This document shows positions 1,637 through 22,923 of a stretch of DNA of 42,937 nucleotides, in pieces. The stretch spans positions 1 through 42,937 of the forward strand of contig CACPOD010000007.1 of assembly GCA_902635515.1 (NCBI GenBank), in the 5' to 3' direction. Origin of the DNA: an uncultured Pelagibacteraceae bacterium (GTDB lineage Bacteria > Pseudomonadota > Alphaproteobacteria > Pelagibacterales > Pelagibacteraceae). A program made the translations under genes and the position numbers. Numbering within the stretch: position 1 is the first letter of the stretch; each line of letters begins with the position of its first letter. The notes beneath the pieces are model-generated. The model had not been told where the DNA came from. It searched no databases and saw nothing but the letters and a program-made list of their open reading frames with translations.

Positions 1637-2425
1637 ATGTCTGAAAATATTTTAGAGATTAATAATTTAAGTAAATATTTTGGTGGATTAGCTGCAGTTT
1701 CAGATTGTTCAATAAAAGTTAAAAGAGGAACTATCACTGGTATTATTGGGCCAAATGGATCTGGTAAAACAACTTTATTTAATTTAATTGCTGGAAACTT
1801 AAAATCCTCTGGTGGTAATGTTGTTTTTGATGATGAAAATATTACTGATGTTCCATCTTATGAATTATTTTCTAAAGGGTTGTTAAGAACATTTCAAATT
1901 GCTCATGAGTTTTCAAATTTATCTGTTTTAGAAAATTTAATGATGGTTCCAGGAAATCAATCTGGAGAAAAAATAATGACAGCATTATTTAAACCAGGTT
2001 TAGTTGCACGAGAAGAGGCTGTGGTTAAAGAGAAAGCGAAAGAAGTTGTTGAATTTTTAAATTTAGGACATTTATCAAATGAGCTAGCTGGAAATCTTTC
2101 AGGTGGACAAAAGAAATTATTAGAACTTGGAAGAACCATGATGGTTGATGCAAAATTAGTATTATTAGATGAAGTAGGAGCCGGAGTTAACAGAACTTTG
2201 TTAAAAGATCTTGGTACTGCAATAGAAAAGTTAAATAAAGAAAAAGGTTATACTTTTTGTATGATTGAACATGATATGGATTTTATTGGAAGATTATGTG
2301 ATCCAGTAATTGTTATGGCTGAAGGATCAGTTTTGTTTGAAGGAAGTGTTGAAGAAGCAAAAAAAGATGAGAAAGTTATCGAAAGCTATCTTGGAAGAGG
2401 ATCAAAATTAAAGGATACAAATTAA
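1637..2425 (+). CDS. livG: Branched-chain-type amino-acid ABC transporter ATP-binding protein LivG
   Basis: Cytoplasmic ATPase of a HAAT-family (branched-chain or other amino acid) importer, 262 residues, usual length. Walker A is GPNGSGKTT (about residues 38-46), the signature is LSGGQKKLLELGR, and Walker B is LVLLDEVGAGVN. The last is the LivG variant with DE followed by VGAGVN where DEP.AG is common. The C-terminal EHDM and VMAEG motifs are typical. The stop overlaps the ATG of livF by one base (TAATG). It forms a heterodimer with LivF beneath the LivH/LivM permease. Confidence 0.93.
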   Translation: MSENILEINNLSKYFGGLAAVSDCSIKVKRGTITGIIGPNGSGKTTLFNLIAGNLKSSGGNVVFDDENITDVPSYELFSKGLLRTFQIAHEFSNLSVLENLMMVPGNQSGEKIMTALFKPGLVAREEAVVKEKAKEVVEFLNLGHLSNELAGNLSGGQKKLLELGRTMMVDAKLVLLDEVGAGVNRTLLKDLGTAIEKLNKEKGYTFCMIEHDMDFIGRLCDPVIVMAEGSVLFEGSVEEAKKDEKVIESYLGRGSKLKDTN

Positions 2426-3132
2426 TGGCATATTTTGAGGGAATAGAAATGACAGGTGGTTATGGTAATGGTCCTGACATTATTAGTTCGTGTTCAGTAA
2501 ATGTTAATAAAGGTGAAATAGTTTCTATTTTAGGTCCTAATGGAGCTGGTAAATCAACTGCCATGAAAGCAATGTTGGGCTTGCTGAATTTAAAGTCTGG
2601 ATCAGTAAAGATTGATGGTAAGGATATTTCAAAATTATCTCCTCAAGATCGAGTTAAGCAAGGTATTTCTTTTGTGCCACAGACTAAAAATGTTTTTGCA
2701 GGGATGACTGTTGAAGAGAATTTAGAAATGGGTGCATTTCTTATTGAGGATGAGATCAAAAATATAATTGAGGAAATTTATGAATTATTTCCAATTTTAA
2801 GAGAGAAAAGAAATCAGTTAGTTGGTGAACTTTCTGGAGGTCAAAGACAACAAGTAGCTTTAGGCCGAGCTTTAATGATTAAACCCACTGTTTTAATGTT
2901 AGACGAGCCAACTGCTGGTGTATCGCCAATTGTGATGGATGAATTATTTGATCATATTGTTAAAGTAAAAAGAACAAACGTTGCTATCTTAATGGTAGAA
3001 CAAAATGCAAAACAAGCCTTAAGCATTTCAGATAGAGGCTACGTTCTGGTTACTGGAGAAAATCGTTATTCAGGAACTGGAAAAGAATTATTAGACGATC
3101 CAAGAGTAAGAAGCTCTTTTTTGGGAGGGTAA
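2425..3132 (+). CDS. livF: Branched-chain-type amino-acid ABC transporter ATP-binding protein LivF
   Basis: Second ATPase subunit of the importer, 235 residues as expected for LivF. Visible motifs are Walker A GPNGAGKST, Q-loop FVPQ, signature LSGGQRQQVALGRAL, Walker B MLDEPTAGVSP and the EQNAKQAL switch region, all characteristic of LivF. Translation is coupled to livG through TAATG and is followed one base later by livH. A purine-rich GGGAGGG near the end of this gene serves as a ribosome-binding site for livH. Confidence 0.94.
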   Translation: MAYFEGIEMTGGYGNGPDIISSCSVNVNKGEIVSILGPNGAGKSTAMKAMLGLLNLKSGSVKIDGKDISKLSPQDRVKQGISFVPQTKNVFAGMTVEENLEMGAFLIEDEIKNIIEEIYELFPILREKRNQLVGELSGGQRQQVALGRALMIKPTVLMLDEPTAGVSPIVMDELFDHIVKVKRTNVAILMVEQNAKQALSISDRGYVLVTGENRYSGTGKELLDDPRVRSSFLGG

Positions 3133-3133
3133 T

Positions 3134-4144
3134 ATGGATTTTGTAAATGCAATAATTCTTTTATTAAATTATATTTTCATTCCTGCATTAACTTACGGTT
3201 CTCAGTTAGCACTGGGTGCAATATTTGTAACACTTATTTATGGAATTTTACGATTTGCAAACTTCGCAACTGGTGACATGATGTCTTTTGGAACCATGGC
3301 TACGATATTATTCACATGGTATTTTCAATCTTTAGGTGTTTCTTTAGGTGTTTTACCTACTGCTTTATTGGCTATTCCTTTTGGAATAATTTTCATGATA
3401 TTTTACATGCTTTTAATAGATAAATTTGTCTTCAAATATTATAGACATCAAAAAAGTCCCCCAGTTCAATTTGCAATGGTAAGTATTGGTGTAATGTTTG
3501 TAACTCAAGCAGTGGTAAGAATTATAATTGGACCTGGCGATAGAAGATTTTTTGATGGTGAAAAATTCATTATTAAAGCTCGTGAATTTAAAGAGATGAC
3601 AGGTTTAAACGAAGGTCTTGCACTGAAATCTACTCAAGTAATAACCATTTTTGTGACAATAGTTTTAGTCTCTTTATTATTTTGGTTTTTAAATAGAACT
3701 AAAACTGGAAAAAGTATGAAAGCTTATTCTGATAATGAAGATCTTGCTTTGCTATCAGGTATTGATCCAAAAAAAATAGTTTTAGTTACTTGGGTTATTG
3801 CTGGTATTTTAGCTACAATTGGTGGAGCTTTGTATGGTTTAGATAAAAGTTTTAAACCATTTACTTATTTTAATAATATGCTTCCTATTTTTGCTGCTGC
3901 AATTGTTGGAGGAATTGGAAATCCATTTGGAGCCTTTTTAGGTGGATATGTAATTGCTTTTTCTGAAATACTCCTCACTTATGCATATAAAAAATTCTTT
4001 ATGTATGTTTTACCAGAAAGTATGGAGCCAAATAGTTTAGTTCAGCTACTGTCAACAGATTACAAGTTTGCTGTATCGTTCTCTATTCTTGTAATTGTTT
4101 TAATTTATAGACCATCGGGAATATTTAAGGGGAAAGTATTGTGA
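3134..4144 (+). CDS. livH: Branched-chain-type amino-acid ABC transporter permease LivH
   Basis: Inner-membrane permease subunit, 336 residues, somewhat longer than the usual 290-310. It is hydrophobic throughout with about eight membrane segments. Family landmarks are GILRFANFATGDMM near residues 36-50, the cytoplasmic coupling segment R.TKTGKSMKAYSDNEDLALLSGID (about 190-212), and AAAIVGGIGNPFGAFLGGY. The stop overlaps the GTG start of livM by four bases (GTGA). The substrate cannot be told from sequence; HAAT permeases carry many amino acids, not only leucine, isoleucine and valine. Confidence 0.92.
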   Translation: MDFVNAIILLLNYIFIPALTYGSQLALGAIFVTLIYGILRFANFATGDMMSFGTMATILFTWYFQSLGVSLGVLPTALLAIPFGIIFMIFYMLLIDKFVFKYYRHQKSPPVQFAMVSIGVMFVTQAVVRIIIGPGDRRFFDGEKFIIKAREFKEMTGLNEGLALKSTQVITIFVTIVLVSLLFWFLNRTKTGKSMKAYSDNEDLALLSGIDPKKIVLVTWVIAGILATIGGALYGLDKSFKPFTYFNNMLPIFAAAIVGGIGNPFGAFLGGYVIAFSEILLTYAYKKFFMYVLPESMEPNSLVQLLSTDYKFAVSFSILVIVLIYRPSGIFKGKVL

Positions 4145-5511
4145 GAAAAAACCTAAATGTAATTGCAGCTTACAGCATCATGATGGTACTTATTCTAATG
4201 GTTGGGATATTTCAGTCTTGGAATATTGCTTTATCAATATTTAATCTTTGTTTGATTTCTGCAGTCATGACAATGGGTGCGAATATTCAATGGGGGTACG
4301 CTGGTTTAATTAATTTTGGAATTATGGGTTATACAGCTTTAGGTGGTTTAGCTGCAGTATTGATATCTGTCGATCCTGTTCAAGAAGCCTGGAGGGCAGG
4401 AGGTTTCGATATTCTAATGTCATTATGGCTGATAGTAGTAATGGTATTAGTTATAAGGTTTATTTTAAAAAGATTTGAAAAATCAAAAATCAGAACATAC
4501 AGCATAGCTGCAATAATAATTTCAGGTATTTTACTAATTAGATTTTCTGCAGAGCCAGGTATAGAAGCTATTGAAGCAGTTGATCCTGCTAAAACTGGTT
4601 TCCTGGGTGGATTTGGATTACCAATTATATTTTCTTGGATAGTTGGAGCTCTTTTTGCAGGGGGTTTAGCTTTTATAGTTGGGAAAGTTGCGCTTGGTCT
4701 TAGAGCAGATTATTTAGCAATTGCCACTCTACTTATTTCTGAAATTGTTATTGCAATTATTAAACACGAGGATTGGCTCACAAGAGGGGTCAAAAATGTG
4801 ATTGGATTAAAAAGACCTGCACCTTATGAGGTAGATCTGCAAACTACAGATTGGTTTATTAAATTAGTTGAAAAGTTTAATGCAGGAAAATTAAGTGTAA
4901 TTGAGAATTTAGCTGATAGACAGGCTGCTTTAAACCAACTTGTTATAGAAGGTTCATCAGTATTTGTAAAACTGTGTTATTCAGGATTATTCTTAGTTGT
5001 AGTAATTATTCTTTTAATTTTAACTCAAAAAGCTCTTTATTCTCCATGGGGAAGAATGATGAGGGCAATTAGAGATAATGAGGAAGCTGCAAATGCAATG
5101 GGTAAAAACGTTGTTAAACAACATTTACTAATTTTTATTTTAGGCTCAGCAATTGTTGGAATTGCAGGCGCAATGCTTGTTACACAAGATGGACTATTTA
5201 CTCCAGGAAGTTATAGACCTATGAGATATACTTTTTTGATTTGGGTGATGGTAATTGTTGGAGGAAGTGGAAATAATTTTGGGGCAATTTTAGGAGGATT
5301 TGTTGTTTGGTTTTTATGGATTGAAGCTGCACCAATATCATTATTCTTAATAAACTTTTTCACTGCGGGAATTCCTGAAACAAATGCACTTAAAGCTCAT
5401 TTAATTGAAAGCGTTCCTTATTTCAGATTTTTACTGATGGGATTAGGATTGTTGTTTATAATGAGGTATCGACCTAAAGGTATACTTCCTGAAAAAATAG
5501 AAATAAAGTAA
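4141..5511 (+). CDS. livM: Branched-chain-type amino-acid ABC transporter permease LivM
   Basis: Second permease subunit, 456 residues, clearly longer than typical LivM proteins (about 320-425). It starts with GTG at 4141, overlapping the livH stop. Conserved parts are NIQWGYAGLINFGIMGYTALGG near residues 48-70, LGLRADYLAIATLLISEI (about 184-201), the coupling loop SPWGRMMRAIRDNEEAANAMGKN, and VGGSGNNFGAILGGFVVW. Extra length comes from a hydrophilic stretch around residues 215-275 and a linker around 100-150. Long LivM forms are not rare in alphaproteobacteria, so this is a variant and not a fusion. It is followed 5 bases later by a tiny ORF. Confidence 0.9.
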   Translation: MRKNLNVIAAYSIMMVLILMVGIFQSWNIALSIFNLCLISAVMTMGANIQWGYAGLINFGIMGYTALGGLAAVLISVDPVQEAWRAGGFDILMSLWLIVVMVLVIRFILKRFEKSKIRTYSIAAIIISGILLIRFSAEPGIEAIEAVDPAKTGFLGGFGLPIIFSWIVGALFAGGLAFIVGKVALGLRADYLAIATLLISEIVIAIIKHEDWLTRGVKNVIGLKRPAPYEVDLQTTDWFIKLVEKFNAGKLSVIENLADRQAALNQLVIEGSSVFVKLCYSGLFLVVVIILLILTQKALYSPWGRMMRAIRDNEEAANAMGKNVVKQHLLIFILGSAIVGIAGAMLVTQDGLFTPGSYRPMRYTFLIWVMVIVGGSGNNFGAILGGFVVWFLWIEAAPISLFLINFFTAGIPETNALKAHLIESVPYFRFLLMGLGLLFIMRYRPKGILPEKIEIK

Positions 5512-6789: not shown

Positions 6790-7971
6790 TTATCTTTGTT
6801 TTTTAGTTTTGAATTTTCCGCCTTTAACTTCTTGTTCTAAGAAAGAACCTTCAGCTTCACCAACGTCAGTAAAAGTTACTCCAGTAGCACCTTCGTAATT
6901 AATCTTTTTACCTTTTGCTAGTAAATCTAAACCTTTCTTAAGCTCACCTGGATAAATTTTAGTTCCAGGAGCGTTAGCAACATCCATTACATGTTTTGCA
7001 ATAGATGCTCTGTCAGCAGAGTTACCTGCTTGCATTGCAAGAACGATTAAAGCAGCTGCATCGTAAGATTCACCTGTGTAAGGACCAGAAGCCTCTACAC
7101 CCCCAGCTTTTGCAACTTCAGCAAATATACCCGCACCTTTACCAGTAGAACCTGGTAATGATCCAAATGATTTACTTAAATCTTTTCCGAATGCATCAAC
7201 TAAAGATTGACCAATCATACCATCTGATAAAATAAATCTATCAAACGCACCAGAGTCTAAAGAAGCTTGAATAATTCCTTTTCCTCCTTGGTCAAGATAA
7301 CCAATAACTGCTACAGCATCACCACCAGCAGAAGCAAGAGTTGCTACTTCAGATGAGTAATCTGCTTTTCCATCTTCGTGAGCAGTTACAGTTGTAACTT
7401 TAATACCATGAGCCTCAACTGCTGCTTTATAAACATCAGCTAAACCTTTACCATAGTCATTGTTAGTATAAGTGATTGCAACACTTTTTACTTTTCTATC
7501 TTTAGTTATGTCAGCTAAAATTTGGCCACCTCTAGCATCTGATGGAGCAGTTCTAAAGAAATACCCTTTGTCATCTAGAGTTGTTAATCCTGGAGAAGTA
7601 GCTGAAGGTGAAATCATTACTACACCATTTGGTACAGCAACGTTAGTTGCAATAGCACCAGTTACACCTGAACAGTCTGCTCCCATGATTGCAGCTACAC
7701 CACCTGAAATTAAACCTTCAGCTGCAGCTGTTGCCGCTGCTGAGTCAACACAAGTTGAGTCTGCTCTTACTGGCTCAATTTTTTTTCCACCTAATAGTGA
7801 ACCTGAATCAGAAGCTTCTTTAAACGCAAGCTCTGCAGATGCAGCCATAGCTGGAGTTAGAGATTCAATAGGACCAGTGAATCCTAAGATGATCCCCATT
7901 TTAATATCTGCCATTACCTTTGTTCCAAAAATAGAAACAAACATAAATGCAGCGATAAATAGTTTTCTCAT
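6790..7971 (-). CDS. livK: Branched-chain-type amino-acid ABC transporter substrate-binding protein LivK
   Basis: Periplasmic binding protein for the livGFHM importer, type 1 periplasmic-binding fold (Peripla_BP_6). A signal peptide, MRKLFIAAFMFVSIFGTKVMA, precedes the mature protein. The mature N terminus IKMGIILGFTGPIESLTP and the ligand region MGADCSGVTGAIA and ISPSATSPGLT are typical. The ATG at 7971 is chosen over the in-frame start at 7995 because GAGGAAG sits directly upstream and the signal peptide begins there; this gives 393 residues. It faces the other liv genes and ends at the shared terminator. Separate transcription of the binding protein permits higher expression than the membrane parts. 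The 110 bases upstream, to the aldehyde dehydrogenase end, should hold its promoter but no strong match is visible. Confidence 0.92.
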   Translation of the reverse strand: MRKLFIAAFMFVSIFGTKVMADIKMGIILGFTGPIESLTPAMAASAELAFKEASDSGSLLGGKKIEPVRADSTCVDSAAATAAAEGLISGGVAAIMGADCSGVTGAIATNVAVPNGVVMISPSATSPGLTTLDDKGYFFRTAPSDARGGQILADITKDRKVKSVAITYTNNDYGKGLADVYKAAVEAHGIKVTTVTAHEDGKADYSSEVATLASAGGDAVAVIGYLDQGGKGIIQASLDSGAFDRFILSDGMIGQSLVDAFGKDLSKSFGSLPGSTGKGAGIFAEVAKAGGVEASGPYTGESYDAAALIVLAMQAGNSADRASIAKHVMDVANAPGTKIYPGELKKGLDLLAKGKKINYEGATGVTFTDVGEAEGSFLEQEVKGGKFKTKKQR

Positions 7972-8080: not shown

Positions 8081-9562
8081 TTATCTGATTGAGAAAGGGT
8101 CTAGAGAAGGTTCATCAGATGTATAGAACCATGTTGTTTTTACTCTTGTATAGTCTTTAATTGAGTCAATTCCTGCTTCTTTTCCATATCCACTATCCTT
8201 GATACCTCCAAATGGAGCTGAAGGAGAAATTAATCTATAAGTGTTAACGAAAGTTATACCTGCCCGGATAGCATTAGATACCCTCATTCCTCTTGCGAGA
8301 TCACTAGTATAAACACCTGAAGAGAGACCATATTGATTATCATTCATTAATTCTATTACCTCTTTTTCAGTATCAAATTTCATTACTGATAACACAGGGC
8401 CAAAAAGTTCATTCTCAGCTGCTGGCAGATTATGATTTTCACATTCAATAATTGTTGGTGGGAAATAATAACCTTCATTTGAAAAAGGATGTCTTTTACC
8501 ACCACATTTAATTTTTCCACCTTGTTCAACAGTTAATTTAATATTTTTTTCTATTACTTCTAATTGTTTAAAGTTACTCAAGGGACCCATTTCAGTATCA
8601 GAGTCCATTGGAGCACCTATTTTAATTTTTTCCGCTCTTGATGCTAATTTATCTAAAAATTCATTATAAATTCCTTTTTGTAAGTACAACCTTGAACCTG
8701 CTATACAGCTTTGACCACTTGCTCCAAATATTCCAGCAGTTATTCCATTAATTGCATTTTCTTGTTTAGCATCATTAAAAACAGCTACAGGACTTTTTCC
8801 ACCTAATTCTAAACTTACTTCAGATAAATTTTCTGCAGAGTTTCTAATAATATGCCTTGCAGTTTCAGGACCTCCTGTAAAAGCTACTTTCTCAACTAAG
8901 TTGTGAGTAGTTAAAGCTTTACCACATGGATCTCCAAAACCAGAAACTACGTTTACAACACCTTTTGGTATTCCAGTTTCTTCAACTAACTTTGCAAATT
9001 CAAACATAGTTGCTGGCGCTAATTCAGAACATTTAATTACAACTGTATTACCCATAGCTAAAGCAGGAGCAACTTTTGTTGCGGTTAAAAACATTTGAGA
9101 ATTCCAAGGAATGATAGCTGCAATAACACCTATTGGAATTCTTGTTGTGATTGCCTGAATATTTGGTTTATCTATTGGAAGAACTGTTCCTTCAACTTTG
9201 TCAGCTAAACCTGCATAGTAATCGTAATATTCTGCAATGTATTTTGCTTGTTGATAAGTTTCTCTATATAGTTTTCCTGTATCAATTGTTTCAATCTTTC
9301 CTAATAATTCAGAATTTTCCCTCAGCTTATTTCCAATGGCTCTTAAATATTTTGCTCTATCTCTTGCTAGCATTTTTGGCCATTCACCTTCAAAAGCTTT
9401 TTGTGCAGCTTTTACAGCTCTATCAACATCATTTGCGCTAGCTTCAGGTACTACAGCCCAAGGCTTATTATTTTCTGGATTTAAAGTTTCAAAAGTTTTT
9501 TTTGTATCAGAGTCTACCCACTGACCGTCTATAAACATTTGATATTTTTTTAACTCAGACAT
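8081..9562 (-). CDS. NAD(P)-dependent aldehyde dehydrogenase (last gene of monooxygenase operon)
   Basis: ALDH superfamily enzyme oxidising an aldehyde to the acid, 493 residues. The catalytic set is intact: Asn154 (PWNSQ), Glu252 (LELGGKSP) and nucleophile Cys286 (GQSCIAGSR). The cofactor motif FTGGPETA (about 228-235) has Gly-Gly where FTGS is commonest, and KCSE replaces the frequent KPSE. The start overlaps the end of the hydrolase gene by 8 bases, so translation is coupled. As the fourth gene after a flavin monooxygenase it is expected to oxidise the semialdehyde released by ring or chain cleavage, as TgnC does in trigonelline breakdown; that role is inferred from the neighbours. Confidence 0.88.
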   Translation of the reverse strand: MSELKKYQMFIDGQWVDSDTKKTFETLNPENNKPWAVVPEASANDVDRAVKAAQKAFEGEWPKMLARDRAKYLRAIGNKLRENSELLGKIETIDTGKLYRETYQQAKYIAEYYDYYAGLADKVEGTVLPIDKPNIQAITTRIPIGVIAAIIPWNSQMFLTATKVAPALAMGNTVVIKCSELAPATMFEFAKLVEETGIPKGVVNVVSGFGDPCGKALTTHNLVEKVAFTGGPETARHIIRNSAENLSEVSLELGGKSPVAVFNDAKQENAINGITAGIFGASGQSCIAGSRLYLQKGIYNEFLDKLASRAEKIKIGAPMDSDTEMGPLSNFKQLEVIEKNIKLTVEQGGKIKCGGKRHPFSNEGYYFPPTIIECENHNLPAAENELFGPVLSVMKFDTEKEVIELMNDNQYGLSSGVYTSDLARGMRVSNAIRAGITFVNTYRLISPSAPFGGIKDSGYGKEAGIDSIKDYTRVKTTWFYTSDEPSLDPFSIR

Positions 9563-10340
9563 TATTTATATGTTTCATTATTGCATTATTTACTTCGTCT
9601 GCATATTCAATACTGCATAAATGTTTTCCATTTTTAATTTCAACATATGTTGAATTTTGTATATCTTTATTTAAATTTTTTGACATATCAGGCGTAGATC
9701 CTGGATCATCTGATCCTGTTATAATTAAGGTATTTGATTTAATATTTTTTATATTTTCAAGATTGTCCTCATAGTTTGCAAATATTTCATAAGCTTTTAT
9801 AAAATTTTCTTGATCAATTCCTTTCTTATTAAGAATTTTCATAAACTCATCGTATAATTCAGGGTTTTGCTCAAGGTACTCATCTGAAAACCATCTCTTC
9901 ATTGCCATTTGAGATATTGGCATATTTTTTTTTGCTAAATTTACTCTATCAATTACATTTTGTCTTTCTTCAGCTGTCCTTTTGTAAGTAGTGGAAATTA
10001 GAGTTAAGGAATTTAAATAATTTTCATATTTTGAGGCAAATTCAATTGCAATCAAAGATCCGATAGAAAAGCCGATTAAATTAAATTTATCTATCTTTAG
10101 GTTATTTACTAAATCTGATAATTGATCAGTAAAATTTTCCATTGATAAATTTGGCTCTTTAAAGGGTGTTTTTCCATGTCCTAACAGATCGTAAGTTATC
10201 AATGAATTATCTTTAAAAAATTCAATTTGTGGTTTCCACATTTGCTGATTTAAACCAACCCCATGAATAAAAATTATTGGTAACGAATTTTTATTATTAA
10301 AATAATAATGATTTTGATTGTTATCAAAATTGTAAGACAT
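9555..10340 (-). CDS. Alpha/beta-fold hydrolase
   Basis: Cytoplasmic serine hydrolase of the alpha/beta-hydrolase fold, 261 residues. Visible elements are the oxyanion loop FIHGVGLN (His26-Gly27), the nucleophile elbow GFSIGS (Ser92), the acid in GSDDPG (probably Asp212) and the base His240 (GKH). The ATG at 10340 is preferred to the TTG one codon earlier. It lies 3 bases after the AA_synth stop and overlaps the aldehyde dehydrogenase by 8 bases. Hydrolases of this size act as RutD in pyrimidine breakdown and as the amide-cleaving TgnD in trigonelline breakdown, both downstream of luciferase-like monooxygenases; a similar amide or ester cleavage is inferred here. Confidence 0.87.
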   Translation of the reverse strand: MSYNFDNNQNHYYFNNKNSLPIIFIHGVGLNQQMWKPQIEFFKDNSLITYDLLGHGKTPFKEPNLSMENFTDQLSDLVNNLKIDKFNLIGFSIGSLIAIEFASKYENYLNSLTLISTTYKRTAEERQNVIDRVNLAKKNMPISQMAMKRWFSDEYLEQNPELYDEFMKILNKKGIDQENFIKAYEIFANYEDNLENIKNIKSNTLIITGSDDPGSTPDMSKNLNKDIQNSTYVEIKNGKHLCSIEYADEVNNAIMKHINNV

Positions 10341-10343
10341 CAA

Positions 10344-10928
10344 TTATTTATCGATGCCCATCTCTTTCATGTCTTGATATCTGTCACCTGTTCTTGCATG
10401 AGCTCGTCCAGTTGGAGCACCTCCAATAGCTACAACTATTTCATCTTCATTAGGGGCATCGTGAATTGTAAATTCATGCGTTAGATAAAAAGGTCTTAAT
10501 CCAGCATCAGTTTTATGCATCATTGGAATTGAAATTTTTGCTCCCGCAGGACCTCTAGTGTTAGTAAAACTTAAATAAGAAGTTCCACCAACAGCATCTC
10601 TAAATTTATTTCCAAATCTTAAAGTATGAATAAATGCAGACGCATGTTCTATTTCACCGTTCAATCCAACCATCGCAGCTTTCCCATAAGCTAAAATTTT
10701 TTCACCTGATCCAATTTCTTTTGTTAACTCTGGCACCAAAAGGTCTCCTAATTGAGGTGCAAGATCTAATATTTCTGGTTTTAAATCTTCTACAAAACCT
10801 TTTCCGGCCCAAGGATTTTCTATAACAGCTGCAACTGAAACTAACAAAACAGGTTCTTTAGCTTTTTTTCCACCCTCTATAAAAGTTTTATCTACAAATT
10901 TTGCAAATTTTCTAAGTTTTAAATCCAT
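10344..10928 (-). CDS. AA_synth (DUF1185, PF06684) family protein
   Basis: Small cytoplasmic protein of 194 residues, the usual size for the family. Recognisable landmarks are KPVLLVSVAAVIENPWAG-like sequence near residues 24-42, LTKEIG, AYGKAAMVGLNGEIEHASAFIHT (about 95-117) and GGAPTGRAHAR near the C terminus. Structures of family members show a chorismate-mutase-like fold and a proposed role in amino-acid metabolism, but no firm reaction is known to me. It lies between the monooxygenase (3 bases upstream) and the hydrolase (3 bases downstream), so it most likely acts on an intermediate of the same pathway. Confidence 0.82.
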   Translation of the reverse strand: MDLKLRKFAKFVDKTFIEGGKKAKEPVLLVSVAAVIENPWAGKGFVEDLKPEILDLAPQLGDLLVPELTKEIGSGEKILAYGKAAMVGLNGEIEHASAFIHTLRFGNKFRDAVGGTSYLSFTNTRGPAGAKISIPMMHKTDAGLRPFYLTHEFTIHDAPNEDEIVVAIGGAPTGRAHARTGDRYQDMKEMGIDK

Positions 10929-10931
10929 TTA

Positions 10932-12098
10932 CTAGCTAGCTCTTTGAATGTTCGTATCTATCGGTTTTATATTTGGAATTACTTCTTCTGTAAATAATTT
11001 GATGCTTCTCATGCAGTCTTCGTGTTTAATTCCTGGAAAGTTAGACCAGACTTGTAAGTTTTGAAGATTTAATTCTTGTTGAAGTTCTTTTATTTTTTCA
11101 ATTACAAACTCAGGTGTTCCAAACAATAGATTTCTTTTATGAAGAAATTCATAATTTAATAAATCTAGTTTATTTTTTGTCTCTGGTAATTTTTCATCTG
11201 GATCCATATGATTTCCCAATCCTCTCCAATGACAAACCCATCTCATATAATTTACAATATGTTCTCCAGCCATTTTTTCAGCCTCTTCCATAGTTTCTGC
11301 AACAAACATATCTCTAACCAAACTAATACCTTCCCCTAGTGGTACATCTCTATTTTCAGCTTTAGATTTTGCATCTTTATAAATTTCAAATCTTTTTTTC
11401 AAAGCTTTTACAGTTGGTATCCACATAATTGTATTAAGCCCATTTTCTGCTGCCCACTGAATTGATCTTTCTCCATCAACTACTTGAGAAATTGGTGGAA
11501 AAGGTTTTTGATAAGGTTTTGGTAATACAGATATTTGTTTTAATTCATTTGTTTTTAAATCGACAACATTTTCTTTTGGAGGACTCATATCGTGTTGCCA
11601 AATAAAATTTGGTGAGGGATAAGTATAGAATTCACCTTGGTGAGAAAAGAAGTCCTCAGACCAAGCTTTTTTCATTATGTCCAATGTTTCAGAAAATAGT
11701 CTAAAATTTTTTGCTTGATCTTTTAAGTCAGCTTCTTTGTTCATGTTAATGGCTTCTCTTCCGTAAACTCCTCTTCCAATACCAACTTCCACTCTTCCTT
11801 TTGACATTTGGTCAAGGGTAGCAATATCTTCTGCAAGTCTTATAGGATTATGAAATGTTATTACGTTGCAAGCTTGTCCTAAACGAATATTTTTGGTTCT
11901 TGCAGCAGCATCAGTACACATCATTAGTGGATTAGTGCAAGACTCCATTCCCTCATGATTAAAATGATGTTCGGTATACCAAATAGAATTCCAATTATTT
12001 TGATCACAATATTCAGTGATTTCTCTAGCTTCGTCTAGAAGTTGGGTATAAGGTTTTTTATCCCAATTAGTAGTATTACAAAAATATCCAAAGTTCAT
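10932..12098 (-). CDS. Luciferase-like (LLM-class) flavin-dependent monooxygenase
   Basis: Bacterial-luciferase-fold monooxygenase using reduced FMN and O2, 388 residues. The N-terminal WYTEHHFNHEG (about residues 38-48) is the LuxA/RutA-type signature, followed by RTKNIRLGQACNVITFHNPIRLAEDIATLDQMSKGRVEVGIGRG-type sequence, the most conserved part of the family. A long insert with a PPKENVV segment (about 165-185) sets it apart from the short alkanal oxygenases. The ATG at 12098 has a perfect ribosome site; the longer start at 12140 has none and adds non-family residues. The gene ends with TAG immediately followed by in-frame TAA. No flavin reductase is encoded in this operon, so reduced flavin must come from elsewhere. 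First gene of the operon. Confidence 0.9.
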   Translation of the reverse strand: MNFGYFCNTTNWDKKPYTQLLDEAREITEYCDQNNWNSIWYTEHHFNHEGMESCTNPLMMCTDAAARTKNIRLGQACNVITFHNPIRLAEDIATLDQMSKGRVEVGIGRGVYGREAINMNKEADLKDQAKNFRLFSETLDIMKKAWSEDFFSHQGEFYTYPSPNFIWQHDMSPPKENVVDLKTNELKQISVLPKPYQKPFPPISQVVDGERSIQWAAENGLNTIMWIPTVKALKKRFEIYKDAKSKAENRDVPLGEGISLVRDMFVAETMEEAEKMAGEHIVNYMRWVCHWRGLGNHMDPDEKLPETKNKLDLLNYEFLHKRNLLFGTPEFVIEKIKELQQELNLQNLQVWSNFPGIKHEDCMRSIKLFTEEVIPNIKPIDTNIQRAS

Positions 12099-12203: not shown

Positions 12204-13172
12204 CTAGCGCTGATATTCAATAAATTTCTTTAAGGATTTGTTAAGAAATTTCTCATAAATTGGACCATTATTTTTTAATTTGCTTCCGTTTAAAAATGAT
12301 TGGTTCATTTTGAAATCATAGGAAGGTTCAAAGAAAAAAGGAACAGAGAGTCTCTTACTTTTATTCCATAAAACTCTGTGATTAGTTGCTTTAAATTTAC
12401 CTTTGCTTAGAAACTCCAAAGCTCTACCAGTGTTTACTACTAAAGCTTTTTGGTTAAATGGCACATCATACCATTTTTTATTTTTTCTATTTTGTACCTG
12501 CAATCCACCTTTTCTATCTTGATAGAGAACTGTGAACACACCACTATCAACATGCGTTTCACATCCAAGAGCAACCCCATCTTGTTTAGATATTTCTACC
12601 GGTTTTGTCTGATTAGGATAATAATTAAATCTTAATGTACTTAATGTTTTTAATCTTGAAAAAGCTACACTAGAAATATCAGGATTTTTTTTATTAAGTT
12701 TTATTACACTCTTAAATAAAGTTTCACTCAATCTATAAATATTATTAAAATATTTATTTAAAATATTTATTGAGCTTTTTTTAAAACACTCATCTAGATT
12801 AAGAAATTCTATGTATTGATTATTTAGATTTGAAGAATATTTTTTAGTTACTTTTAAATCACCTAGATCCAAACCTTCTTTTCCGTTCACATCATTAGGA
12901 AAATATCCCCTGTAAAGATTTTTATTTTTTTTATTCCATTTTTTAGGTGATAATTTTCTTTTCTTACTGTCTGGTAAATTAAAAAATTTATTCCCAACTT
13001 CGCATGTTTTTTTAATTTCTTTTAGATTAATTCCATGTCCAGTAATTTGAAAAAATCCTACATTGACACAAGCTTTTTCAATTTCTTTAATTGTTTTAAA
13101 TGCATTTTGAGTTTCAAAATTATTTTTTATTAAAGGAGAAATATTAATTGTTGGTATAAAGTTCTTGCTCAT
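12204..13172 (-). CDS. 2OG-Fe(II) oxygenase, isopenicillin-N-synthase-like
   Basis: Non-haem iron oxygenase of the IPNS/DIOX class, 322 residues. The N-terminal DIOX_N domain shows VGFFQITGHGI (about residues 38-48). The catalytic jelly roll has iron ligands His207 and Asp209 (THVDSG) and His265 (NHRV), with the 2-oxoglutarate-binding pair Arg274 and Ser276 (RLSVPFF). All are present, so it should be active. The substrate is not predictable; bacterial members hydroxylate or desaturate small metabolites. The start overlaps the end of the EamA gene by four bases, so it is likely co-transcribed with the exporter, thioesterase and ProV genes. Confidence 0.87.
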   Translation of the reverse strand: MSKNFIPTINISPLIKNNFETQNAFKTIKEIEKACVNVGFFQITGHGINLKEIKKTCEVGNKFFNLPDSKKRKLSPKKWNKKNKNLYRGYFPNDVNGKEGLDLGDLKVTKKYSSNLNNQYIEFLNLDECFKKSSINILNKYFNNIYRLSETLFKSVIKLNKKNPDISSVAFSRLKTLSTLRFNYYPNQTKPVEISKQDGVALGCETHVDSGVFTVLYQDRKGGLQVQNRKNKKWYDVPFNQKALVVNTGRALEFLSKGKFKATNHRVLWNKSKRLSVPFFFEPSYDFKMNQSFLNGSKLKNNGPIYEKFLNKSLKKFIEYQR

Positions 13173-14122
13173 CTTCTAACTGGTGTTTCTGTTGCAATAA
13201 ATTGATCTCTAACTCTTTCTCTGATGTAAATATAAATTCCAGCTGCTATAATACACGCAACACCAATAAACGTTCTGGTCGTTGGTACCTCATTAAATAA
13301 AAAGTAGCCAGGTATCATAGACATAATTATTAATGAGTACTCAAACAAAGAAACAACAGAAGGTGATGCAACTATATATGCTGAAAAAATACAAACAAAA
13401 GCTATTGATGCAGCAAAACCAAAAAATAAAATAAATTTCCATGTATATTCAATATTTGAAAACCATTCTCTAAAGATGAATTGTATTGTTGGATCAAAGT
13501 TTGAATTATTAAGCTGACCACTACCCATAAAAATATATAAAATTACACACAGTAATATTGCAATTAGATAAAAGTAATATAGTTGAGTGTTAACATCATC
13601 TTTATCAGATGTATATTTAGTGATAGTCATAGATGCAGCATAACAAAACGCACAAAAAACTGGTAAAAGACTTCGATATTCAAAGTCTGAAAAATTTGGA
13701 TTTAAGACTATAAAAACGCCAACAAAACCAAAAACAATTGCTGACCACCTTCTAATACCAATAGTTTCTTTTAAAAATAACTTTGCAAATATTGATACGA
13801 AAAAAGGGGAGGAAAAAAATAGAGCATTTGCTGTTGCTAAAGGCATAAAAGTTAGTGAGATAAAAAAAGCAGAAAAAGCAATAAAATGCAAAACCACTCT
13901 TAGTATTGTTAAAAAAGGATAGTGAGTTTTAAGAGAGACTTTTTGTTTTCTGAATTTTATATAACCAAATAGCAAAATTGCTGCAACAAAATATCTTCCA
14001 AAAAATATTTCATATAAAGCTGCTTTTTCAAAAATGAATTTAATTAAAGCATCCTGCATTGCAAAAAATGTCATTGCAGTAATAATTAAAAGTATTCCTT
14101 TTGAATTATTATTAGCGACCAT
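13169..14122 (-). CDS. EamA/DMT-family transporter
   Basis: Drug/metabolite-type permease of 317 residues, with two EamA repeats and about ten membrane segments. Typical family features are ALIKFI in the first span, FFGRYFVAAILL in the second, and FVGVFIVLNP closing the first repeat. The second repeat ends with FIGVACIIAAGIYIYIRER. An AGGTG ribosome site precedes the ATG at 14122. Members export amino acids or their derivatives, or import metabolites; the direction and substrate are unknown. It is followed with a 4-base overlap by an oxygenase. About 40 bases separate it from the thioesterase upstream. Confidence 0.85.
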   Translation of the reverse strand: MVANNNSKGILLIITAMTFFAMQDALIKFIFEKAALYEIFFGRYFVAAILLFGYIKFRKQKVSLKTHYPFLTILRVVLHFIAFSAFFISLTFMPLATANALFFSSPFFVSIFAKLFLKETIGIRRWSAIVFGFVGVFIVLNPNFSDFEYRSLLPVFCAFCYAASMTITKYTSDKDDVNTQLYYFYLIAILLCVILYIFMGSGQLNNSNFDPTIQFIFREWFSNIEYTWKFILFFGFAASIAFVCIFSAYIVASPSVVSLFEYSLIIMSMIPGYFLFNEVPTTRTFIGVACIIAAGIYIYIRERVRDQFIATETPVRR

Positions 14123-14162
14123 TATGCACCTATATCAAAAAAAAATTGTATAGAATATTTAA

Positions 14163-14624
14163 TTATTTCTTTAATTTAGAAGAGAATAGAAGGCCTTCGC
14201 TTGAAAATTTTGACTTATTTTCTTCAATAAAATCTTTCATTAATTTTACTTTTTCTTCTTCAAATTCAGTAACTTTCCTTTTGCTTAAATCTATATATAG
14301 CGATATCCATTCCATAGAAGCTGAAAGTTTGTTAGTTTTTTGAGAAATCATTTCCATTTTTAAATGTAATCTTTTTTTATCATGATCAAAATAAGTCAGA
14401 TTAACATTGACCATTTCTCCCTCTTTTACCTCATTTAAATATTTAGTATTAGTTTCAACAACCATTGTACTTCTATTAAGATTTTTTGCTGCTGTTCCAC
14501 CCATTTTAAATTTTTCAAGAGCAACTTCCCATGCTTGATCAAAAACAAGCACATAATATGCCATGTTCATATGGTTATTGTAATCAACCCATTCCTTTTT
14601 TACTTCGAAAGTTTTTAATAACAC
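14163..14624 (-). CDS. Hot-dog-fold acyl-CoA thioesterase (4HBT family)
   Basis: Small thioesterase of 153 residues, one hot-dog domain. The N-terminal VDYNNHMNMAYY (about residues 13-24) with a following FDQAWE matches the 4HBT_2/FcbC-like catalytic region. Translation begins with GTG at 14624, one base after the ProV stop; no ATG fits before the active-site motif. The pairing with a betaine-type ABC ATPase is suggestive because thioesterases of this group release glycine betaine from betainyl-CoA in carnitine degradation, but dedicated carnitine dehydrogenase and BKACE genes are not visible here. Function beyond acyl-CoA hydrolysis is therefore uncertain. Confidence 0.78.
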   Translation of the reverse strand: MLLKTFEVKKEWVDYNNHMNMAYYVLVFDQAWEVALEKFKMGGTAAKNLNRSTMVVETNTKYLNEVKEGEMVNVNLTYFDHDKKRLHLKMEMISQKTNKLSASMEWISLYIDLSKRKVTEFEEEKVKLMKDFIEENKSKFSSEGLLFSSKLKK

Positions 14625-14625
14625 T

Positions 14626-15651
14626 TTATGATCTTGTTAATGAAGACTGTAATTCTTGGTTTGAAATGTATCCCTTTACATTTCCACTTTTATCAACCAC
14701 TTCACAATTTGAATCAGAACAAACAATTTTTGGTAAAAAATCTTCAATGAACTCATCTTCATTAACTTTTATTAAGTTTGATTTATCTATATCATTAGCT
14801 TGATCAGCAGTTTTCATAATAATTTTTGCCTTGATAACTTTTGCTCTATTTACATCTTTTACAAAAGCTTTTACATAATCATCAGCAGGGTTCATAATAA
14901 TTTCCTCGGGAGTTCCTACTTGGACTAATTTTCCAGAGTTTAATATTCCGATATGATCACCCAATCTTAATGATTCATCCAAATCATGTGTAATAAATAC
15001 AATTGTTTTTTTTAATTCTGCTTGAAGATCAATTAATTGTTTTTGCATATCACTTCTAATCAGAGGATCTAGAGCACTGAAAGCTTCATCCATTAACATA
15101 ATATCTGTATCAGTAGCTAACGCTCTTGCTAAACCAACACGTTGCTGCATTCCTCCTGATAATTGAGCAGGGTATTGATTTTCAAAACCAGTTAAACCAA
15201 CTGCATCAATTTTTTCCATTGAGATTTTATTTCTTTCATCTTCACCTTTCCCTTGCATTTCTAGTCCGTAACCAACATTTTGAATCACTGTTTTATGTGG
15301 GAATAAACCAAATCTTTGAAATACCATGCTCATTTTATGCCTTCTAAATTCGATAAGCTTATCTTTATCAAGTGACATTACATTTGTGCCCTCAACTAAA
15401 ATTTCGCCATCAGTTGGATCGATTAGTCTATTTAGATGTCTTATTAGTGTTGATTTCCCTGATCCTGATAAACCCATACAAACAAAGGTTTCTCCCTCTT
15501 CAATTTTAAGCGAAACATTATCTAATCCAACGGTATGACCAGTTTGCTCTAAAATTTCGTCTTTTGTTGCACCATCTTTTACCATTGGCAGTACAGAAGA
15601 AGGGTTGTTTCCAAAAATTTTGTATACGTTGTTGATCTCAATTTTTGACAT
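14626..15651 (-). CDS. proV: Glycine betaine/proline-type ABC transporter ATP-binding protein ProV
   Basis: ATPase of an OpuA/ProU-type quaternary-amine importer, 341 residues. The N-terminal extension with IFG and DEILEQTGHTVGL (about residues 31-44) is specific to ProV. Walker A GLSGSGKST spans residues 60-68. The signature is LSGGMQQRVGLARAL and Walker B is IMLMDEAFSALDPLIR. The C-terminal tail (about 270-341) is a short CBS-like regulatory part. No ProW permease or ProX binding protein is adjacent on either side, which is unusual because these are normally one operon; they must be encoded elsewhere if this ATPase works. It is transcribed divergently from the aldolase/dioxygenase pair across a 125-base gap. 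Confidence 0.9.
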   Translation of the reverse strand: MSKIEINNVYKIFGNNPSSVLPMVKDGATKDEILEQTGHTVGLDNVSLKIEEGETFVCMGLSGSGKSTLIRHLNRLIDPTDGEILVEGTNVMSLDKDKLIEFRRHKMSMVFQRFGLFPHKTVIQNVGYGLEMQGKGEDERNKISMEKIDAVGLTGFENQYPAQLSGGMQQRVGLARALATDTDIMLMDEAFSALDPLIRSDMQKQLIDLQAELKKTIVFITHDLDESLRLGDHIGILNSGKLVQVGTPEEIIMNPADDYVKAFVKDVNRAKVIKAKIIMKTADQANDIDKSNLIKVNEDEFIEDFLPKIVCSDSNCEVVDKSGNVKGYISNQELQSSLTRS

Positions 15652-15686
15652 GATGTAATGTTCTAACAGTTACAATCATCATATGT

Positions 15687-15718
15687 AAAACAAATATTAT
15701 ACAACTTATAATTGTTTT
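15687..15718. promoter_or_regulatory. Imperfect inverted repeat in a divergent intergenic region
   Basis: Between proV and the class II aldolase gene, AAAACAA (15687-15693) and TTATA (15697-15701) are mirrored by TATAA (15707-15711) and TTGTTTT (15712-15718). The left half has three extra bases. The 12-base composite arms lie where divergent promoters are expected, so a repressor or activator site serving both operons is plausible. AT-rich composition weakens the case. Confidence 0.35.
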
Positions 15719-15776
15719 AAGAAATAACAGTTGTATTTATTTGCTTTTGCTTATTTTTTAAATAAGAATTTTATAT

Positions 15777-16508
15777 ATGGCGCAAACAGATAAAGATGTG
15801 CGACTAGAGTTGTCTGCTCTCTATAGAATTTTACATATGTACGGCATGACAGACCTTGCTAACCAATGTGCAGGGGCAAGATCTGCTGAAGATAAAAATT
15901 GTTCTTTCGTTCATCCATATGGAATGTTTTATGAAGAAATTACCGCTTCATCTTTAGTTAAAATTGATCAAAACGGAAAAAAATTAGATTCAAACGGACC
16001 TTGGTTAAATGATGGATGTATTAATCTTGCTCAATGGATTTTTAATAAAAGAAATGATGTAAATTTTTATGTTCACGGACATGCCAATGATGTGATGGCA
16101 GTTGGAGGTACCAAAGAAGGTTTGATGTATCTTTCACAGGCCGCAGTTTATTTAAATCATCTTGTTGGATATATTGATTATGAATTTGTTGAGGACAAAG
16201 AATTTGGAAGTAAATTTGAAAACCTAATTAGCAAACACGACATTTTGATCACTAGAAATCATGGATATTACACAGTAGGAAAAACTGCAGCAGAAGCATT
16301 TTTCAGAGCTTATTATCTGGAGCAAGCATGTTCAGTTCAGGTAAAAAATCTTGCTATGGGTTTAAATAAACATGAAATAGATAAACAAAAAGCTGCATAT
16401 TTCTGGGAAAACATGAGTGACTCTGATGATTATAATTATGATGGAAAAACAGAGTGGGCTGCTTTATTAAGAAAACTTGAAAGAGAACATTCAAATTATA
16501 AAACTTAA
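15777..16508 (+). CDS. Class II aldolase/adducin-family protein with altered active site
   Basis: 243 residues, one aldolase-II domain. The zinc ligands are retained as HGH (about residues 100-102) and the His of RNHG (about 161). Aligned without gaps to E. coli FucA, the catalytic Glu of S-S-E-W falls on Cys in NDGCIN, and the phosphate-binding G-T-x-G-N loop is lost (LANQCAGAR). The protein therefore probably binds a metal and a non-phosphorylated substrate but may not catalyse a classical retro-aldol reaction. The TAA overlaps the ATG of the dioxygenase (TAATG), indicating joint function. Possible roles are decarboxylase, hydrolase or a non-standard aldolase on the hydroxylated product of the next gene. 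Confidence 0.8.
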   Translation: MAQTDKDVRLELSALYRILHMYGMTDLANQCAGARSAEDKNCSFVHPYGMFYEEITASSLVKIDQNGKKLDSNGPWLNDGCINLAQWIFNKRNDVNFYVHGHANDVMAVGGTKEGLMYLSQAAVYLNHLVGYIDYEFVEDKEFGSKFENLISKHDILITRNHGYYTVGKTAAEAFFRAYYLEQACSVQVKNLAMGLNKHEIDKQKAAYFWENMSDSDDYNYDGKTEWAALLRKLEREHSNYKT

Positions 16509-17659
16509 TGGAACAAAATTTTACTATTAAAAATATAACTAAAAATTCTACAAATTTAGAAGTTGATTGGAGTGATGGAAAAAAAAGTAAATTTAATTAT
16601 TTATGGTTAAGAGACAATTGTCCAACTGCTCATGACAAAGACTCCCGTCATAGAATGTTTAATATTCTAAAAGTATCAAATAACATTAACCCAAAAAAAT
16701 TTGCGGTAAATGATGAGGGAAAACTTGAAATTGAATGGAGCGAAGGAGATCATATAAGCTATTATGATCAAAATTGGTTAAGAGAAAACTGTTATACTAT
16801 AAAAAATAATTTAGAATATAAATCTCCATATCAACTTTGGGATAACTCTTTACAAAATGACTTGAAGTCAATTGAAATTGAACATGATGAAATTATGAGT
16901 TCAGATGAAGGACTTGTCAGGTGGTTAGAGCTTTTACATCATACTGGAATTGCTATAGTAAAAAATGCTCCAATTGAAAATAACTCTGGCTTTAAAATTT
17001 TAAACAGAATTAGCCATACCAGAGAAACTTTTTTTAAAACACCTTTTGAAGTAATTAACATTCCTAAACCAAATAATTCTGCTTACACAGCGCATGCCTT
17101 AAGAAATCATATGGATTTACCATGGTTTGAAACACCACCTGGCTATCAATTTCTTCATTGTTTGTTGAATTCTGCAAAGGGAGGAGACTCATCCGCTGTA
17201 GATGGGTTTGCAGTAGCAGATTATTTGAGAAAAAATGAGAAAGAAATATTTGATACGTTAGTAAACGTTCATTTAAAATTTAGGGATATGGATTATACAC
17301 AAGAGTCTGTAAGAAGTTATTATGCACCTGCAATATCTCTAACAAAAGATAACGATTACCATGATATTCGGTTTAGTGTAGCAACTATGGATGCTTTAGA
17401 CTGTCATCCTGATTTGATGGATAAAGTTTATAAAGCTCATCACCGATTTGGAAATTTACTTCATGACGATCAATTCCAGATTAAATTTAGATTAGGACCA
17501 GGTGATATTTTTTCTTTTAACAATAGACGATTATTACACGGTAGAACTGAATATGATCCAAACTCAGGACATAGACATTTACAAGGTTATTACATGGATC
17601 GAGATGAAATTATTGGAAGACTAAGATACTTAAAAAATTTGGTTAACTCCAACCAGTAA
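16508..17659 (+). CDS. Gamma-butyrobetaine/trimethyllysine-hydroxylase-like 2OG dioxygenase
   Basis: Two-domain Fe(II)/2-oxoglutarate oxygenase of 383 residues. An N-terminal DUF971-like domain (about 1-100, with WLRDNCPT) is followed by a TauD-type catalytic domain. Iron ligands His201 and Asp203 (NHMDLPW) and His344 (LLHGR) are present, as are PPGYQFLHCL, GGDSSAVDGF and RHLQGYYMD, strongly like human BBOX1. The N-terminal zinc site of BBOX1 is degraded: only Cys38 of its Cys cluster remains. Homologues hydroxylate gamma-butyrobetaine, trimethyllysine or trimethylaminoethylphosphonate, all quaternary amines, so a trimethylammonium substrate is likely. The 3' end overlaps the convergent aldehyde dehydrogenase by 17 bases. 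Confidence 0.85.
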   Translation: MEQNFTIKNITKNSTNLEVDWSDGKKSKFNYLWLRDNCPTAHDKDSRHRMFNILKVSNNINPKKFAVNDEGKLEIEWSEGDHISYYDQNWLRENCYTIKNNLEYKSPYQLWDNSLQNDLKSIEIEHDEIMSSDEGLVRWLELLHHTGIAIVKNAPIENNSGFKILNRISHTRETFFKTPFEVINIPKPNNSAYTAHALRNHMDLPWFETPPGYQFLHCLLNSAKGGDSSAVDGFAVADYLRKNEKEIFDTLVNVHLKFRDMDYTQESVRSYYAPAISLTKDNDYHDIRFSVATMDALDCHPDLMDKVYKAHHRFGNLLHDDQFQIKFRLGPGDIFSFNNRRLLHGRTEYDPNSGHRHLQGYYMDRDEIIGRLRYLKNLVNSNQ

Positions 17660-19073
17660 CATTCTTTACTTCAAGATATTCCTCAAGGCCCCAAACACCT
17701 CCTTCTCTCCCATTACCTGATTGTCTGTAACCACCAAATGGAGTTCCTGCATCTGCTCCATTTCCATTAATGTAAACACAGCCTGATCTTAATTTTTTAG
17801 CAACTCTATGTGCTTTCTCTTTATCTTCAGTTTGCAAATAATTTCCAAGACCATAAGAAGTATCATTTACAATGTTGACTGCCTCATCTTCGGTCTCAAA
17901 TGGAATTATAGATAACACAGGTCCAAAAATTTCTTCTTTAGCAATTCTCATGTCATTAGTTACATCTGTAAATATAGTAGGTTTGATAAAGTATCCTTTG
18001 TTCAAACCGTTTGGTAACTCAGGTCCACCTGCTGCAAGTGTTGCACCTTCAGAAATTCCACTTTCAATAAGATTTATAATTTTATCATATTGAACTTTAG
18101 AGATGACGGGTCCTATATGATCTCCTTTTTTAGAAGCTTGATCTACTTTAATTTTGTTTGCTTCATCTACTGCTTCTTTAACAGCTCTTTCATAAATTGA
18201 TTTTTCAACAAGCATTCTTGTTGGTGCATCACAAGATTGACCGGAATTACTCATTACATTTCGAATGCCATCTCTTACTGCATCTTTATAACTGTCAGCA
18301 AAAACAATGTTTCCACCTTTACCACCTAATTCAAGACAAACTCTTTTAATTGTTTCTGCAGCGTTTTTTGAAATTAATCTTCCTGCTCGCGTTGAACCTG
18401 TGAAAGAAACCATATCAATATCAGGGTGGCTTGAAATATCAGTTCCTACTCCTGCACCATCGCCATTTACTAAATTAAATACTCCTTTTGGAAAACCTAC
18501 TTCATCAATCATTTCTGCAAATAACATTCCAGAAATAGGAGCTATCTCTGATGGTTTTAAAATCATTGTACATCCAGTTGCGAATGCAGGAATAACTTTT
18601 AAAGCAATTTGATTAATTGGCCAATTCCATGGTGTGATTAACCCACAAACTCCAATTGGCTCATAATAGATATGATTATTTGATTTATTATCAAAGTGTT
18701 CATCAAATTTAAAATTTTTTAATCTTAAAATGAAATCATCTAAATGATCTTTCCCTGAAGCTGTTTGAACATCTGTTGCCCAATCCATTGGTGCACCCAT
18801 TTCTAGAGAAATAGCCTCAGCCATTTCACTAAATCTTTTTTTATAAACTGATGATAATTTTTCAAGTAAACTGAGTCTTTCTTCCTTGCTTGTTTCTTTC
18901 CAAGTATCAAAGGCATTTTTTGCTGATTTAACAGCTAAATCTGTATCTTCTTTTGAACCTAAAGAAATAACAGCAAACGGGTCTTCATTGCATGGATTAA
19001 TTACGTCAAAATCATTTTTTTTAATTGGATCAACCCACTGACCATTTATGTAAAATTTTCTTTTATCTAACAT
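17643..19073 (-). CDS. Aldehyde dehydrogenase (paralogue of the one at 32107-33540)
   Basis: NAD(P)-dependent ALDH of 476 residues. Catalytic residues are Asn150 (PWNWP), Glu248 (CLELGGKG) and Cys281 (NSGQSCDAPTR); the NAD motif is SFTGSTRAG. It begins with the same MLDK..FYING.WV and ends with the same EYLEVK..(T/G)GWS pattern as the enzyme at 32107, and more than half of positions look identical, so they are paralogues. The substrate is unknown; convergence with a trimethylamine-type hydroxylase makes a trimethylaminobutyraldehyde-like or betaine-aldehyde-like substrate possible. It is probably co-transcribed with the two upstream genes at 19094-20904. Confidence 0.88.
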   Translation of the reverse strand: MLDKRKFYINGQWVDPIKKNDFDVINPCNEDPFAVISLGSKEDTDLAVKSAKNAFDTWKETSKEERLSLLEKLSSVYKKRFSEMAEAISLEMGAPMDWATDVQTASGKDHLDDFILRLKNFKFDEHFDNKSNNHIYYEPIGVCGLITPWNWPINQIALKVIPAFATGCTMILKPSEIAPISGMLFAEMIDEVGFPKGVFNLVNGDGAGVGTDISSHPDIDMVSFTGSTRAGRLISKNAAETIKRVCLELGGKGGNIVFADSYKDAVRDGIRNVMSNSGQSCDAPTRMLVEKSIYERAVKEAVDEANKIKVDQASKKGDHIGPVISKVQYDKIINLIESGISEGATLAAGGPELPNGLNKGYFIKPTIFTDVTNDMRIAKEEIFGPVLSIIPFETEDEAVNIVNDTSYGLGNYLQTEDKEKAHRVAKKLRSGCVYINGNGADAGTPFGGYRQSGNGREGGVWGLEEYLEVKNVTGWS

Positions 19074-19093
19074 TTTTTATCTTAACACATTAA

Positions 19094-20904: not shown

Positions 20905-20962
20905 ACCTATTTTTTATATTAATGATTATTAAAGAACTTCTGATATATTCACCTTTTAAAAT

Positions 20963-22878: not shown

Positions 22879-22923
22879 TTAGCTATTGAAATCTATTTAC
22901 ACAAATGTTTTATATTCATCTTT

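Follow-up and report, generated by a model that had tools for sequence, protein, structure and literature searches.

The four-gene operon at positions 8081-12098, on the minus strand, of a contig from an uncultured Pelagibacteraceae bacterium (SAR11) may encode a pathway of the trigonelline (tgn) type that starts with a different ring-opening enzyme and acts on an N-methylpyridine betaine, homarine being the probable one. The stretch analysed, called the window below, comprises 42,937 nucleotides of contig CACPOD010000007.1 (assembly GCA_902635515.1). The operon consists of genes for a luciferase-like flavin monooxygenase (LLM), an AA_synth (DUF1185) protein, an alpha/beta hydrolase and an aldehyde dehydrogenase (ALDH). 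Gene order and protein kinship point to the homarine reading, which we regard as tentative, its probability lying somewhat short of even. If it is true, the operon would supply a marker gene, and enzymes that can be assayed, for a large flux of carbon and nitrogen, the LLM gene being present in 137 of the 397 genomes of the order and in 49 of its 151 near-complete genomes (E <= 1e-60). It would also illustrate how one set of catabolic genes can be put to use on a second substrate when its first enzyme is of another kind and the downstream ones stay.

Operon structure and conservation

All four genes are intact. The LLM (10932-12098, 388 amino acids, PF00296) is a predicted ring-opening oxygenase, and its ATG at 12098 is preceded by AAAGGAGGC. 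It is followed on the same strand by the AA_synth protein of the TgnF type (10344-10928, 194 amino acids, PF06684 with 218 bits), the alpha/beta hydrolase (9555-10340, 261 amino acids, PF00561, alternative TTG start at 10343) and the ALDH of the TgnC type (8081-9562, 493 amino acids, PF00171 with 536 bits). The LLM and AA_synth genes are 3 bases apart, as are the AA_synth and hydrolase genes, and the hydrolase and ALDH genes overlap by 8 bases, exactly as described in an earlier note on this DNA that was made from the sequence alone. The AA_synth sequence contains GExEH and HAR motifs, the hydrolase GxSxG, SDDP and GKH, and the ALDH GQxC and ELGG. The best NCBIfam models for the hydrolase are PcaD-like, with scores under the cut-off.

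A first set of 61 genomes, the window's own (1.12 Mb, 83% complete) and 60 relatives, contained 19 with the LLM gene. The order LLM-AA_synth-hydrolase-ALDH, with or without a thiamine diphosphate (ThDP) enzyme and one more gene after the LLM, was kept in 16 of these 19 loci, including two in which a contig end cuts the ALDH (G025) or the LLM (G039); the remaining three (G006, G056, G057) run off their contigs. The row was also present in all 46 further SAR11 loci fetched. These came from G691, G491, G464 and the near-complete LLM genomes outside the first set, of which 43 of 44 were used; G452 was omitted, its LLM gene being split over contig ends, and the loci of about 72 other LLM genomes of the order-wide scan lie outside the count. 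Taken together, 62 of 65 loci have the genes in order and the other three are cut by contig ends, which is more conservation than chance would give. The comparison of gene order across SAR11 genomes that the earlier note proposed has shown the four genes to be linked wherever the contig extends far enough.

The limits of the operon require revision. An LIV-type binding protein gene follows the ALDH gene on the same strand, directly or past an EamA gene, in 38 of the 46 loci, and the LIV-type periplasmic binding protein gene at 6790-7971 (minus strand, PF13458) likely belongs to the operon. The earlier extent of 8081-12098 therefore stands for the four genes and is too narrow for the whole.

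A class-level search of 385 genomes revealed a related operon outside SAR11, in genome G271 (locus L166), where flavin reductase, LLM, AA_synth, hydrolase and ALDH genes lie in one row. Its LLM belongs to the same clade as that of the window (55% identity), its AA_synth, ALDH and hydrolase are 62%, 51% and 29% identical, and the order is the same. It differs in having its own flavin reductase directly upstream and, further upstream, a Rieske oxygenase, a LysR regulator and a FAD oxidase, whose best models scored far under the cut-off. In G286 an LLM, an AA_synth, a hydrolase and a TgnC-like ALDH occur within 13 kb, on both strands.

Kinship with the trigonelline cluster

Through plasmid-borne matches to AA_synth we found the row AA_synth-hydrolase-flavin reductase-LLM-ALDH in Ruegeria, Leisingera, Pantoea, Rhizobium, Thioclava and Burkholderia. 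Named genomes were scanned with the LLM of that row, the best 80 of 562 relatives being taken, and exactly this order was found in 71 of all AA_synth neighbourhoods examined. On a plasmid of Acinetobacter sp. PK01 (L133) NCBI annotates the row as tgnA, tgnB and tgnC, with AA_synth and hydrolase genes just upstream. According to PMC7913881, TgnF of A. baylyi, a homologue of a DUF1185 protein, promotes the TgnE-dependent oxidation of succinic semialdehyde, and the authors observed no such stimulation with their own homologue. The name TgnF for the AA_synth neighbour of tgnABC rests on that statement about the A. baylyi protein. The earlier note had placed AA_synth outside the Tgn set; a step foreign to Tgn is ruled out by the adjacency to tgnABC together with the TgnF homology given in that paper.

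The AA_synth of the window is 57% identical to the one beside the Acinetobacter tgnABC genes and 54-60% identical across the tgn clusters of L133 and the Ruegeria, Leisingera, Thioclava, Pantoea, Rhizobium and Burkholderia plasmids. In the AA_synth tree it groups with the tgn type at 82/80, which is not full support. An AA_synth protein named Candidatus Pelagibacter sp. matches that of the window at 97% identity. The ALDH is 50% identical to the annotated TgnC (48-52% across the clusters) and 34% to the succinic semialdehyde dehydrogenase (SSADH) of the L133 locus. The SAR11, G271, G286 and TgnC enzymes form one clade in the ALDH tree (100/98), apart from BetB, FeaB, PuuC and SSADH, in a small sample in which the E. 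coli rows (BetB, FeaB, PuuC) are long branches. A clade of the SAR11, G271 and G286 ALDHs apart from TgnC was absent from the best tree and was not rejected (p 0.095).

The monooxygenase is of another kind. Its alignment with Acinetobacter TgnB spans just 149 residues, at 32% identity. In the LLM tree it joins the G271 protein (95/96) and then LLM proteins of other Alphaproteobacteria (97/94); the relatives of the G271 LLM carry the names Kiloniellales, Acidimicrobiales, Gammaproteobacteria and Rhodospirillaceae, among others. The earlier pairing of the monooxygenase with TgnB as its close counterpart had to be given up, because the SAR11 and G271 LLMs belong to another clade and a tree holding them with the TgnB clade as direct sisters was rejected (p-AU 0.008). 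The wider LLM clade and the TgnB clade are adjacent with weak support (72/82, and 85/78 in another tree).

RutA, SsuD and SfnG were also rejected as identities of the LLM, all three lying beyond a 100/100 branch, SsuD and RutA on long branches of their own. The oxygenase is not found with SsuD or SfnG, an alkane-sulfonate-type clade that the earlier note had named as a placement speaking against its proposal. The likeness to RutA that it drew fares poorly, at 22% identity over 132 residues and across that same branch. The Rut system of E. coli does share the pairing of an LLM oxygenase with an alpha/beta hydrolase. The hydrolases are 20% identical, however, RutB, RutC, RutE and RutF are without counterpart in the SAR11 row, and Rut has neither ALDH nor AA_synth. 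For the pyridine (Pyr) cluster, a reference sequence of a PyrA-type oxygenase was sought and not found, nor did the 10 of 51 papers listed include one on it.

The hydrolase is 26.8% identical over 265 residues to the hydrolase of the tgn cluster, which we take to be TgnD, and 25-28% identical across the clusters. Although the tgn clusters also hold an alpha/beta hydrolase and an LLM oxygenase within one row, the gene order differs, the SAR11 row is without flavin reductase and SSADH, and the SAR11 loci have an LIV-type transporter where the tgn clusters have cytosine-permease, BCCT or other transporters. Judged from sequence, the operon is partly homologous to the tgn cluster and not a member of it, since neither a TgnB-type oxygenase nor a TgnA-type flavin reductase was found in the row. 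The resemblance to Tgn claimed in the earlier note is homology for AA_synth and ALDH; the LLM is no close counterpart of TgnB, and the hydrolase is at 27% a distant match. The operon likely works like Tgn.

A plasmid of Arthrobacter dokdonellae (L203) carries two AA_synth copies (43% and 49% identical to that of the window), a hydrolase (28%), an ALDH (43%) and an LLM. In contrast to the SAR11 row, its LLM is of the TgnB clade (50% identical to TgnB) and a tautomerase and a flavin reductase are present; the sequences indicate that a tgn-like cassette reaches Actinomycetota. A second tgn subtype was also observed, with CMD nearby (in one case with glycine-betaine transport genes) and a more distant ALDH (41-42%).

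Candidate substrate and route

TgnB cleaves the ring of trigonelline at C5-C6 to an N-methylformamido semialdehyde. In the route proposed here the betaine would enter through the LIV-type binding protein together with the products of the facing liv genes, and the LLM, given reduced flavin by a reductase encoded elsewhere, would make the same cut and likewise yield an N-methylformamido semialdehyde. Oxidation of the aldehyde would fall to the TgnC-like dehydrogenase. The hydrolase would set free formate and methylamine, and with homarine as the substrate 2-oxoglutarate would remain; the carbon balance is 7 = 1 + 1 + 5. An N-methylformamido aldehyde or lactone intermediate is suggested by the annotated name of TgnC, N-methylformamido-methylene hydroxybutyrolactone dehydrogenase. 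Homarine, unlike trigonelline, has its cationic nitrogen beside the carboxylate-bearing carbon. The N-methylformamide and aldehyde end, common to both isomers, would meet the conserved AA_synth and ALDH, and the differing carboxylate would meet the diverged LLM and hydrolase. AA_synth may assist a late step, as reported for TgnF (PMC7913881).

The choice of homarine, which we consider plausible, draws on its occurrence. In Heal et al. (PMC8269262), homarine is the most abundant compound measured and is described as having no characterised degradation pathway. TgnA and TgnB are expected there not to fit homarine, and Ruegeria pomeroyi is stated to grow worse on homarine than on trigonelline. 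Such a misfit would call for a different oxygenase. Published homarine catabolic genes were not met in a literature search whose reach excluded most subscription papers, which makes this a weak negative. The earlier suggestion of a marine pyridine betaine was sensible, although the substrate itself is not readable from sequence.

Transport is consistent with such a compound. The binding protein retains S79, T102, Y150 and Y202 of LivJ and has D in place of E226, positions that bind the alpha-amino acid in LivJ. These residues suit a cation beside a carboxylate carbon, as in homarine. The livG, livF, livH and livM genes (ABC ATPases and permeases; PF00005, PF00005, PF02653 and PF02653) lie at 1637-5511 on the plus strand, facing the operon. 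LivG and UrtE/LivF are the best models for them, under the cut-off, and liv genes adjoin the binding protein gene in many SAR11 loci; their products are the probable partners of the binding protein.

Several findings weigh against this reading. The binding-protein residues fit ordinary amino acids equally well, and the hydrolase is distant from that of the tgn cluster (27%). Ten loci with an LLM of the same clade (L168-L177) have no AA_synth or TgnC-like ALDH within the stretch fetched. The wider LLM clade and the TgnB clade may be distant sisters; in that case the two enzymes would have diverged long ago and neither would have replaced the other. The homarine concentrations published by Heal et al. 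have since been revised to lower values. GMAS (TIGR03105), expected if methylamine is made, is not tied to the LLM, occurring in 14 of 19 LLM genomes versus 29 of 42 others, and had no match over the cut-off in the window's own genome, which is 83% complete; the methylamine link through TIGR03105 was dropped for want of association. No flavin reductase is encoded in the SAR11 row, as the earlier note had observed, whereas genuine tgn clusters and the G271 operon each encode one. PF01613 had no match in the same 83% complete genome and none in the 15 genus genomes given, complete ones included, and PF00175 was found in none of seven. Among 22 genomes scanned PF01613 occurred in five, namely three of the five of family f2, G158 and G271. 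PF03358 was found in seven of seven genomes, three of them without the LLM, and a shared protein of this sole class found is the likely donor of reduced flavin, as far as family matches indicate.

The strongest competitor is a different small nitrogen-containing compound, an osmolyte or an amino acid (cyclic or N-methylated, for instance), processed by oxygenation, aldehyde oxidation and hydrolysis. The retained alpha-amino-acid positions of the binding protein agree with it, as do neighbouring genes for carnitine, gamma-butyrobetaine and ectoine, relatives of AA_synth beside 6-hydroxynicotinate reductase and in a coumarin operon, and the second version of the row, with a ThDP enzyme, in 26 of 46 loci. 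Within the set of sequences compared, ALDH and AA_synth fall with the tgn type, which argues the other way, and we rate this alternative a serious contender that is unlikely to be right.

That the operon degrades trigonelline itself, the SAR11 LLM performing the TgnB ring opening with the same products, appears improbable. The TgnC-type ALDH and TgnF-type AA_synth are shared, and trigonelline also occurs in seawater particles, but it is reported to be far scarcer than homarine (PMC8269262), the LLM is of another clade, the hydrolase is distant and the row is without SSADH. It is very improbable that the LLM is an alkanal, ketone or sulfonate oxygenase with tgn-like partners recruited for an unrelated compound: its best solved-structure matches are luciferases, RslO1 and diketocamphane monooxygenase, but at 17-25% identity and in a fold common to the whole LLM class, with RutA, SsuD and SfnG beyond the 100/100 branch and partners of the tgn type.

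Operon versions and neighbouring loci

The ThDP enzyme lies between the LLM and AA_synth genes in 26 of the 46 SAR11 loci (for example L033:8818-10518); the other 20 are without it, like the window. Its best models are sulfoacetaldehyde acetyltransferase (Xsc) and acetolactate synthase, all under the cut-off. In genomes whose operon is ThDP-free the nearest ThDP enzymes are 28-32% identical, and G028 has none at 1e-60. A further gene of 209 residues precedes AA_synth in some ThDP-type operons (L031:10334-10963, L238, L251, L263), its product in L031 being a methyltransferase-type protein.

Trees of each gene from 16 SAR11 loci disagree with one another. The hydrolase of the window groups with the ThDP-less type (100/100; alternative p 0.00015), and so, weakly, does the LLM (92/93; alternative not rejected, p 0.13), whereas the ALDH groups with the ThDP type (100/99; alternative p 8e-12); the placement of AA_synth between the two types was not decided by the tree. 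The disagreement indicates that the ThDP gene tracks the hydrolase type and that the ALDH has been exchanged, which hints that the hydrolase and perhaps the LLM set the chemistry of the operon. The full proposal, a SAR11 homarine pathway that joins a tgn-type cassette to another oxygenase, yields 2-oxoglutarate, methylamine and formate, and comes in a ThDP-containing and a ThDP-free version that exchange genes between SAR11 lineages by recombination, is doubtful as a whole.

A 2-oxoglutarate (2OG)-Fe(II) oxygenase gene (PF03171/PF14226) and an EamA transporter gene (PF00892) lie upstream at 12204-14122 on the minus strand, and this pair is found directly upstream in many SAR11 loci. The surroundings of the operon (12204-24009) look like an osmolyte-catabolism island. 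It contains genes for a ChoV/ProV-like ATPase, a gamma-butyrobetaine dioxygenase-like protein, a thioesterase resembling that of carnitine dehydrogenase, and EutA- and DoeA-like (ectoine) genes that scored under their models' cut-offs. These osmolyte genes count in favour of the homarine reading too. No Rfam families were found in the window.

Relatives of AA_synth were sought in viral contigs and none was confirmed; two records labelled Acinetobacter phage MD-2021a (H261, H262) contain a DUF1185 gene whose DNA is 65% alike to that of the window over 331 bases. On a Sulfitobacter plasmid (L050:5074-8576) two tandem AA_synth genes lie beside a 6-hydroxynicotinate reductase gene and a UPF0280 gene, which is another N-heterocycle setting for the family. 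Two SAR11 genomes carry a second LLM gene adjoining a PcaD-like hydrolase gene, behind BKACE and carnitine-dehydrogenase-like genes (L195:2736-4547 and L196:2381-4192). This second LLM falls with TgnB in the tree (97/96), although its branch is long and its identity no more than 26-27%.

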